Shown here one piece after another: positions 27,187 through 30,337 of a stretch of 64,000 bases of DNA. A model generated the notes under the pieces. That model worked only from the letters and a program-made list of their open reading frames with translations, was not told the origin of the DNA and did no database searches. This DNA comes from Chitinophaga pinensis. GTDB taxonomy: Bacteria; Bacteroidota; Bacteroidia; UBA4408. Both the position numbers and the translations under genes were made by a program. The stretch spans positions 124,001-188,000 of the forward strand of contig CAMAVS010000004.1 in assembly GCA_945861665.1 (NCBI GenBank), in the 5' to 3' direction. Positions within the stretch are counted from its first letter, which is position 1; the number at the start of each line of letters is the position of its first letter.

Positions 27187-28374
27187 TTATTTAATTATGT
27201 CCGTTACTTGACCTGCACCTACTGTTCTGCCACCCTCACGGATAGCGAAACGTAAACCTTTGTCCATTGCAACCGGAACGATTAATTTTACAGTTATAGT
27301 AACGTTATCACCCGGCATAACCATTTCGCGTCCTTCCGGCAATTCAATTTCTCCTGTAACGTCAGTTGTACGTAAGTAAAATTGCGGACGGTATTTATTG
27401 TGAAATGGAGTGTGACGTCCACCTTCTTCTTTCTTCAATACATAAATTTCAGCTTTGAATTCAGTATGGGGGGTAATTGTACCCGGCTTAACGATAACCA
27501 TTCCTCTACGGATAGCTTCTTTGTCAATACCTCGTAACAATAATCCTGCATTATCACCAGCTTCACCACGATCTAATAATTTACGGAACATTTCAACACC
27601 GGTAACAACAGACTTCAACTTAGTTTCTTGCATTCCAATGATTTCAACTTCTTCACCTACTTTAATAACACCTGTTTCAATTTTACCGGTAGCAACAGTA
27701 CCACGACCTGTAATTGAGAAAACGTCTTCCACTGGCATTAAGAAAGGTTTGTCAACCTCACGAACAGGCAATGGAATGAATGTATCAACAGCATCCATAA
27801 GCTCCATAATTTTCTCCATCCACTTAACATCTTTATTCAAACCACCTAAGGCAGAACCTCTGATGATAGGCGTATTATCACCATCAAATTTATAGAATGT
27901 TAATAGTTCACGAATTTCCATTTCAACCAAATCCAATAACTCAAGATCGTCAACCATATCAACTTTATTCATAAACACAACAATTTTAGGAACTCCAACT
28001 TGGCGAGCCAATAGGATATGCTCACGTGTTTGTGGCATTGGTCCATCAGTAGCTGCAACAACAAGTATAGCGCCGTCCATTTGAGCAGCACCTGTAACCA
28101 TATTCTTAACATAATCCGCGTGACCTGGACAGTCAACGTGAGCATAGTGACGTAGAGCTGTAGAATACTCAACGTGAGAAGTATTGATTGTAATACCTCT
28201 TTCTTTTTCTTCAGGAGCATTATCGATAGAAGAGAAATCTCTTACTTCAGACAATCCTTTTTCAGCCAATACAACAGTGATTGCTGCAGTTAATGTAGTT
28301 TTACCGTGGTCAACATGACCAATGGTTCCAACGTTTACGTGTGGTTTGGATCGGTCGAAATTTTCTTTTGCCAT
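27187..28374 (-). CDS. tuf: Elongation factor Tu
   Basis: 395 residues. Delivers aminoacyl-tRNA to the ribosome with GTP. G1 GHVDHGKTT near residue 19, G2 region [13 protein letters not shown]3 [13 protein letters not shown]4 NKVD, and beta-barrel domains 2 and 3 with [20 protein letters not shown]. Flanked by tRNA genes on both sides, in the same direction, so the block is probably co-transcribed. Confidence 0.99.
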
Positions 28375-28785: not shown

Positions 28786-28915
28786 ATAATCAACTAAATT
28801 TTATCGTGAACAGGGCAATGTATGAATAACCTTTAAGCCAATGCAGTATGCTAAATAGCCTCTCTGTGCTTGACTCAAATTATTAAAACATTTCAATTCA
28901 AAGAACTTCATTTCG

Positions 28916-28989
28916 AGCCGATGGAGGGATTCGAACCCCCGACCAGCTGATTACAAATCAGCTGCTCTGGCCAACTGAGCTACATCGGC
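28916..28989 (-). tRNA. tRNA-Thr (TGT anticodon)
   Basis: Acceptor GCCGATG/CATCGGC; anticodon stem-loop GCTGATTTGTAATCAGC gives TGT. Second Thr isoacceptor in the same cluster. Confidence 0.96.
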
Positions 28990-29140: not shown

Positions 29141-29425
29141 CTATTCTTTTAGCCATGATTTTTGTTTTTTTGCTTGGGCTATTACCACTTCTAGTGCACT
29201 ATCAACAGCCTCTTTAAATGTTTTAGCATTTCTTTTTGCAAACAAATCATGTCCTGGAATTGCGGCTTTTATTTCTGCTAATTTATTTTCTGCATCACTT
29301 GATTTTTCAAGCTTAAGTGTTACCTCAACACTAATTATTGCACCGTAATAGTGCTCAATCTTTGCAATTTTTTCATTTATAAATTGGAGTAGTTTTTTGT
29401 CGGCAACAAAGTGCAAGGAGTGAAT
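29141..29425 (-). CDS. hpf: Ribosome hibernation promoting factor (HPF/RaiA family), with an abnormal start
   Basis: Short HPF-like protein (HFVADKKLLQFINEKIAKIE ... FKEAVDSALEVVIAQ) of about 92-95 residues that would bind the 30S decoding site and silence ribosomes. No ATG precedes the conserved part. Possible starts are TTG at 29416 or ATT at 29425. Reading further upstream in frame gives ATT AAA ATC TAG ATT CAC, which lines up with the usual MKV/IxI start of the family but has ATT in place of ATG (29437) and a TAG at codon 4 (29426-29428). Either translation begins at TTG/ATT with a clipped first strand, or the gene is freshly damaged. Follows xerC, as is usual in this phylum. Confidence 0.75.
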   Translation of the reverse strand: MHSLHFVADKKLLQFINEKIAKIEHYYGAIISVEVTLKLEKSSDAENKLAEIKAAIPGHDLFAKRNAKTFKEAVDSALEVVIAQAKKQKSWLKE

Positions 29426-29458
29426 CTAGATTTTAATGAACTTTTTTTAGTTTATAAA

Positions 29459-30337
29459 TTACGCTTTTGGGTGTGCTTTTGTGTGTATGTTTTTTAATTT
29501 TTCGATTGTATTGTGCGTGTATATTTGTGTTGCACTTAAACTAGCATGACCTAATATTTCTTTTATAGCAAGCAAATCGGCTCCATTATCTAACATATGC
29601 GTAGCAAAAGTATGTCGTAATACGTGAGGACTTTTTTTCTCTAAAGTAGTTACCATACCAAGGTACTCATTAATTTTCCGATAAACAAATTTAGGGTAAA
29701 TAGCCTCCCCTTTTTCACTTATAAACAGAGTATTCGAATTACTCACTATTTTAGACCTACATTCAATATATCGTGTTATTTTTTTTTGCATTTCAAGTGT
29801 AATTGGAATACTTCTTTCTTTGTTTCTTTTTCCAACCACTTTAATCGTATTATTATATACATCCAAATCGCTCAATTGAATATTAATTAACTCCGAAAGA
29901 CGCATTCCGCTGACATAAAAAAGTTCAATTACAAGCTTATCTCTCACACCCGTAAAGCCCTCTTCAAAAACAACAGTATCGAGTAATTGATTCATTTTCG
30001 CCTTTTCAACAAATAGAGGTAAGCGTTTTGCCGATTTAGGTGAAATAATTTTAAGCATCGGGTTAACGTCTAAAACCCTTTGTTGTAGCAAATATTTATA
30101 ATACGATTTTAAGGTTGTTATTTTTCTGTTTACTGTACGAGGTGAAATTTTTTGCTCCAACAATTGCACCACCCAACTGCGAATAAAGGTATGACTCACT
30201 TGTTTTATGTCGTCCAACTCGTATTCCTTTTTTAAATAGGCATAGAATTGAACTAAATCATTGGAATAGGCAATAACAGTATGCTTTGAAAATCTTTTTT
30301 CAAATTGTAAATAATCAATAAACTCAACTTGCTGCAT
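29459..30337 (-). CDS. xerC: XerC/XerD-type tyrosine recombinase
   Basis: 292 residues, the size of Xer recombinases. N-terminal SAM-like core-binding domain (FIDYLQFEKRFSKHTVIAYS) and catalytic domain with Arg 146 (SGMRLSEL), Lys 170, His 238/Arg 241 (PHVLRHTFATHML), His 264 (LGHASLSATQIYTH) and Tyr 273. Expected to resolve chromosome dimers at dif. Lies just upstream of hpf on the same strand. XerC and XerD cannot be told apart securely from this alone. Confidence 0.88.
   Translation of the reverse strand: MQQVEFIDYLQFEKRFSKHTVIAYSNDLVQFYAYLKKEYELDDIKQVSHTFIRSWVVQLLEQKISPRTVNRKITTLKSYYKYLLQQRVLDVNPMLKIISPKSAKRLPLFVEKAKMNQLLDTVVFEEGFTGVRDKLVIELFYVSGMRLSELINIQLSDLDVYNNTIKVVGKRNKERSIPITLEMQKKITRYIECRSKIVSNSNTLFISEKGEAIYPKFVYRKINEYLGMVTTLEKKSPHVLRHTFATHMLDNGADLLAIKEILGHASLSATQIYTHNTIEKLKNIHTKAHPKA

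Follow-up and report, generated by a model that had tools for sequence, protein, structure and literature searches.

Results and Discussion

The window, a DNA stretch of 64,000 nucleotides, contains the gene order xerC-hpf-tRNA-Thr, -Tyr, -Gly, -Thr-tuf (Table 1), and its hpf, the gene for a ribosome hibernation factor, lies where HPF/RaiA genes are found, between xerC and tRNA/tuf, many relatives having both neighbours in the compared stretch. Codons 1-4 of hpf read ATT AAA ATC TAG where the relatives start, so that the original prediction of an ATT in place of the start ATG and of a TAG at codon 4 is confirmed by the sequence. The residue-for-residue agreement claimed for this start is also seen, as the alignment with the family is gapless (IKI*IHSLHF against MKVKIQSIHF and similar sequences). 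From ATT 29425 the frame is open to the stop ending at 29141 (codons 5-98), the gene's own terminator being a TAG as well, and its first in-frame ATG, GTG or TTG is the TTG at 29416. No stop-free frame from any start codon spans codons 1-4, and 5' of the gene there is no Shine-Dalgarno sequence. A single-ORF fusion of xerC and hpf was rejected, as in-frame TAA, TAA and then TAG separate the two genes and none of the 80 named hpf loci, which were kept from 536 relatives, is fused.

Table 1: Features of the hpf locus and its neighbours in the window.
Feature	Position	Strand	Basis
hpf (HPF/RaiA, Ribosomal_S30AE) frame, 98 codons and stop	29141..29437	-	PF02482 E 8.7e-15, one TAG inside; alignment of relatives
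ATT at the start-codon position of the family	29435..29437	-	35/36 aligned copies from relatives with ATG here, the remaining one with ATG two codons upstream
TAG stop, hpf codon 4	29426..29428	-	sequence; stop in codons 1-8 in 0/80 named loci
Near-cognate ATT, codon 5; the best-placed alternative start candidate	29423..29425	-	context score +0.73
TTG at codon 8, expected pick of an automatic gene caller	29414..29416	-	first in-frame ATG/GTG/TTG; context score -4.04
Conserved intact hpf body, codons 5-98 and stop	29141..29425	-	26/30 strongly conserved columns; rate residual +1.0 SD
xerC-type tyrosine recombinase, upstream, same frame as hpf, 21 bases before codon 1	29459..30337	-	TIGR02224 7e-94, below the model's own cut-off
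tRNA-Thr (tgt), downstream of hpf, first of the tRNA cluster before tuf	28915..28989	-	ARAGORN, Rfam
tuf (EF-Tu), intact neighbour as control	27187..28374	-	TIGR00485 7.6e-221; residues 1-395 match G004 and G005

The body of the gene matches PF02482 with 54.3 bits, above the gathering cut-off of 23.7, and the protein starting at the TTG, the only form scanned with the equivalog model TIGR00741, reached 31.5 bits, which is under the cut-off of 40.9. As the original prediction had asked for a second full-length hpf to be looked for, the whole genome (2,494,644 bases, that is 2.49 Mb, Bacteroidia, 99.79% complete) was searched: the PF02482 profile found a single place, reported with '1 TAG' inside, and a DNA search with 501 bases of the locus matched only itself, so neither search gave a second gene.

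For the comparison with relatives, 36 hpf copies were aligned; they come from 34 genomes, duplicate loci being counted once. At the codon where the window has ATT, 35 of them have ATG, and the remaining one (G039) has its ATG two codons upstream. Another two copies, both divergent second ones, are unmatched at that codon; that of G043 begins with MKTKIQ and that of G004 has its ATG upstream. The 80 named loci agree with this, 71 having ATG at codon 1 and the other nine, according to their translations, two codons upstream, and none of the 80 carries a stop in codons 1-8. Within the family of the window's genome (8 genomes from five genera) an hpf match is present in 8/8 and only that of the window is damaged. 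The objection that relatives might themselves start at the TTG or ATT thus fails, since no such start occurs among the 36 copies or the 80 loci. Weak profile matches beginning at positions 7-10 (G024, G034 and G049) were considered as downstream starters and rejected, as these are full-length proteins with divergent N-termini. In a PF02482 scan of 60 genomes the sole other match with a stop was a divergent second copy (G043:C169:27003-27275), its TAG lying late in the frame.

The profile is absent from 35 of 395 genomes of the class, including 18 of 339 of good quality, from which we conclude that loss of hpf is tolerated in this class and a plausible event. Within two genera a match is also missing in several high-completeness genomes each (G026, G219, G244 and G268 in g24; G192 and G267 in g120), a sign of earlier losses of hpf within the class.

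The lesions could also be an assembly, consensus or strain-mixture artefact, with living cells carrying an ordinary start. Speaking for this, a single genome of the genus was compared and the sequence turned up nowhere else, same-species sequence giving no match in the scan of genome contigs and none in viral contigs. Against it, the lesions are two substitutions 9 bases apart with no indel and no homopolymer at either base, and tuf, secE, nusG, rplK, rplA, rplJ, rplL and rpoB of the window match G004 or G005 over nearly their full length. Because these eight neighbouring genes match a relative nearly end to end, a gross assembly error in the region is unlikely, and an artefact of any of the three kinds appears improbable to us. 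If the sequence is right, it is certain that normal initiation has been lost in this hpf. As a separate observation, the unannotated phage record MT837542.1 ('Bacteriophage sp.', human faeces, 9.9 kb) carries an hpf homologue at its end (74-331, 42% identity) and is possibly a mis-sorted bacterial contig.

A full-length protein could still be made if initiation at the ATT were combined with read-through or recoding of the TAG. The frame continues with only this one stop and K2 and I3 still suit the family, but two rare events would be required. TAG is an ordinary stop in this genome, where it terminates 22 of 111 sampled genes as well as hpf itself, and the 33 tRNA genes found with Rfam, all typed by ARAGORN, include none with a CTA anticodon and hence no suppressor. 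Since TAG is a normal stop and such a tRNA is missing among the 33, read-through is unlikely; recoding of the stop was rejected on the same two counts, and the combination with ATT initiation is so improbable that we give it hardly any weight.

According to the original prediction translation might begin at ATT 29425 or TTG 29416, giving a shortened factor, or the gene is newly dead, and our comparison supports both outcomes. Under a start shift, a working shortened HPF would be made from ATT 29425 (codon 5) or, with lower likelihood, from TTG 29416; selection would have kept acting on the body, and the former start, now part of the untranslated leader, would have drifted. The candidate starts were compared with a start-context matrix built from the 20 bases before 111 ATG starts in 224 kb of the window's genome, for which the reference median is +1.38 and internal codons score -2.23. 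The ATT at 29437 scores -2.28, the ATT at 29425 +0.73 and the TTG at 29416 -4.04. The context of ATT 29425 thereby equals or exceeds that of 38% of the 111 reference starts and only 14.5% of internal ATG, TTG or ATT codons score as high, while only 1.8% of the reference starts lie at or below the TTG. Because of this poor context of the TTG, of the two starts originally offered ATT 29425 is the better candidate and TTG 29416 loses ground. Codons 5 and 7 moreover keep the invariant I and S of a 12-sequence alignment, as expected of a start at codon 5, which fits them better than a start at codon 8. In the consulted part of PMC6847099, adenines at -3, -6, -12 and -13 are described to favour initiation in F. 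johnsoniae. The infC gene of the window's genome, read by eye, lies behind a GGAGGT and its frame fits an ATA start; as infC seems to begin at ATA, near-cognate starts may work in this organism. Such starts are in general use in infC. In bacteria AUU initiates only very weakly except in infC and a handful of other genes, which speaks against the start shift, as do the lack of an ATT start in any relative and of a Shine-Dalgarno sequence and the bad context of the TTG.

Structure models bear on the same question, although their alignments were shallow (12 rows), so that they are to be taken as weak hints. The read-through frame is predicted as a strand at residues 2-8, a helix, three strands and a helix (pLDDT 79.8, 74.6, 72.6, 65.4 and 48.8 in five models), and only here is the beta-alpha-beta-beta-beta-alpha fold with strand 1 complete. 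The model of the TTG-started protein is without this strand, in line with the original claim that the gene can no longer give the normal N-terminal strand. A point for the start shift is that this clipped protein is still modelled as alpha-beta-beta-beta-alpha and that HPF/RaiA chains (8rd8_D, TM 0.87) match it best in structure, double-stranded-RNA-binding domains following far lower (5npg, TM 0.53). Against it, confidence was low in four of five runs (best pLDDT 77.1, others 49.1, 45.9, 45.6 and 44.9), and the model without strand 1, with four values of 45-49, is the less reliable one. The PDB chain 9i5v_14, 401 residues long and named RaiA, matches XerC with residues 1-297 and HPF with residues 306-399, and is apparently a XerC-HPF fusion or a mis-joining in the database.

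Of the 30 columns with at least 80% conservation among 32 relatives, the body of hpf keeps 26, and when hpf distance was set against that of xerC in 27 genomes, the residual of the window's genome from the trend was +1.0 SD (rank 4 among the 27). Such a rate is not unusually high, and read from this comparison selection on the gene would have been normal through almost its entire history. In codons 5-98 only 5.1% of single changes make a stop, so even after a period without function a gene could appear intact, and the body does not date the lesions. Under random decay a stop would fall into codons 2-4 about 5% of the time (weighted share 0.047). This chance of about 5% for a second lesion upstream of codon 5, which holds unless one event made both changes, is the main point for the start shift, since both lesions lie upstream of 29425 and none is found in the following 94 codons. 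A start shift with a drifted old start is a possibility to be taken seriously, though we do not consider it probable.

We prefer, at about an even chance, the reading that the sole hpf gene has recently stopped initiating translation normally and is now nearly null; a short factor that still works is less likely than such a near-complete loss. The preferred reading is favoured by the position of both lesions where all compared relatives are intact, by the finding of only one PF02482 place in a genome that is 99.8% complete, and by the lack both of a Shine-Dalgarno sequence and of a good context at ATT 29437 and TTG 29416. The ordinary meaning of TAG, the tolerated loss in the class, the intact body, which is no bar to it, and the weaker models without strand 1 argue in the same direction. 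Against recent loss stand the absence of a second lesion from the body, with both changes upstream of a possible new start, the normal conservation of the body, the acceptable context of ATT 29425 and an infC that apparently begins at ATA. Under recent loss, the locus would be an ordinary housekeeping hpf of Bacteroidia, with its usual neighbours, xerC ahead of it and tRNA-tuf behind it, whose initiation was recently lost and whose intact body may be a sign of this recency. Instead of full-length HPF, the cell would make no more than traces of a protein clipped at its N-terminus, and it would probably be largely or wholly without HPF-type ribosome hibernation.

A by-product of this comparison concerns translation initiation at hpf in a phylum whose genes are normally without Shine-Dalgarno sites. 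Ribosomes of Bacteroidia hide the anti-Shine-Dalgarno sequence, with rpsU as the well-known exception (consulted parts of PMC9976891 and PMC8710568), and the whole-genome screen in PMC9976891, in the sections consulted, names rpsU alone for Flavobacteriales and lists ribosomal protein genes for other orders. Among the 80 named loci, 49 carry a strict GGAGG 4-20 bases upstream of hpf, placed 4-10 and mostly 5-9 bases from the ATG, although these loci were chosen for closeness to A1 and overstate the frequency of GGAGG. On other ORFs of the same loci it was found in 0/271 cases with the first ATG and in 0/269 with any start in the first 40 codons, the chance of a GGAGG being about 0.8% per site. 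A sample spread over families had it before hpf in 12/37 loci and 9/30 families, with 0/37 for mock windows, and further loci in 1/11 (in one of these genomes, G009, no ATG was found); for rpsU the family-spread set gave 4/30 and 0/9. By these counts GGAGG is truly enriched before hpf. In the literature passages searched, hpf is not named as a Shine-Dalgarno-led gene in Bacteroidia, and the consulted part of PMC9976891 outside its references names neither hpf nor raiA nor hibernation.

The two genes are often close: of the 56 genomes having both, 32 have rpsU no more than 2 kb from hpf, judged by distance mostly with xerC in between. In the window's genome 66 kb separate them, the anti-Shine-Dalgarno sequence is normal (CACCTCCTTTC), and no GGAGG-type site precedes hpf or rpsU. 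Mutual exclusion of Shine-Dalgarno sites on rpsU and hpf was rejected (39 genomes, table 1/12/3/23, Fisher p = 1.0). As a tentative and rather doubtful model, hpf of Bacteroidia might be one of a tiny set of Shine-Dalgarno-led genes, often in an rpsU-xerC-hpf cluster, with HPF being made mainly by ribosomes whose anti-Shine-Dalgarno is exposed, for example those free of bS21, so that ribosome composition would switch hibernation. In the lineage of the window this control would then have been given up: neither hpf nor rpsU has a Shine-Dalgarno sequence, rpsU would have moved to a place 66 kb off, and as a last step hpf would have lost its own start.

Conclusion

The loss or clipping of the sole HPF in a bacterium of free-living type would offer a natural test of the need for short HPF and of whether HPF works without its first strand. 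The Shine-Dalgarno by-product matters more than the hpf lesion itself: if hpf is Shine-Dalgarno-led where the ribosomes of the phylum normally conceal their anti-Shine-Dalgarno, there could be a link between hibernation and bS21-free ribosomes, and culturable, genetically tractable Bacteroidia would allow a direct test of it.

Compared with the short HPF/RaiA (YfiA) family (PF02482/TIGR00741), which halts translation by binding at the 30S decoding centre, the gene has a body that matches PF02482 and HPF/RaiA chains as its best solved relatives, but differs in being without a usable start for strand 1. With infC (IF3) it shares a near-cognate candidate start, whereas the hpf candidate is without a Shine-Dalgarno sequence and a near-cognate start is found in no relative's hpf. 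From the autoregulation of rpsU by Shine-Dalgarno in Bacteroidia, as described in the consulted part of PMC9976891, the window's genome differs in that its hpf and rpsU are both without GGAGG, while the likeness to that system lies in the GGAGG found on hpf of many of its relatives.
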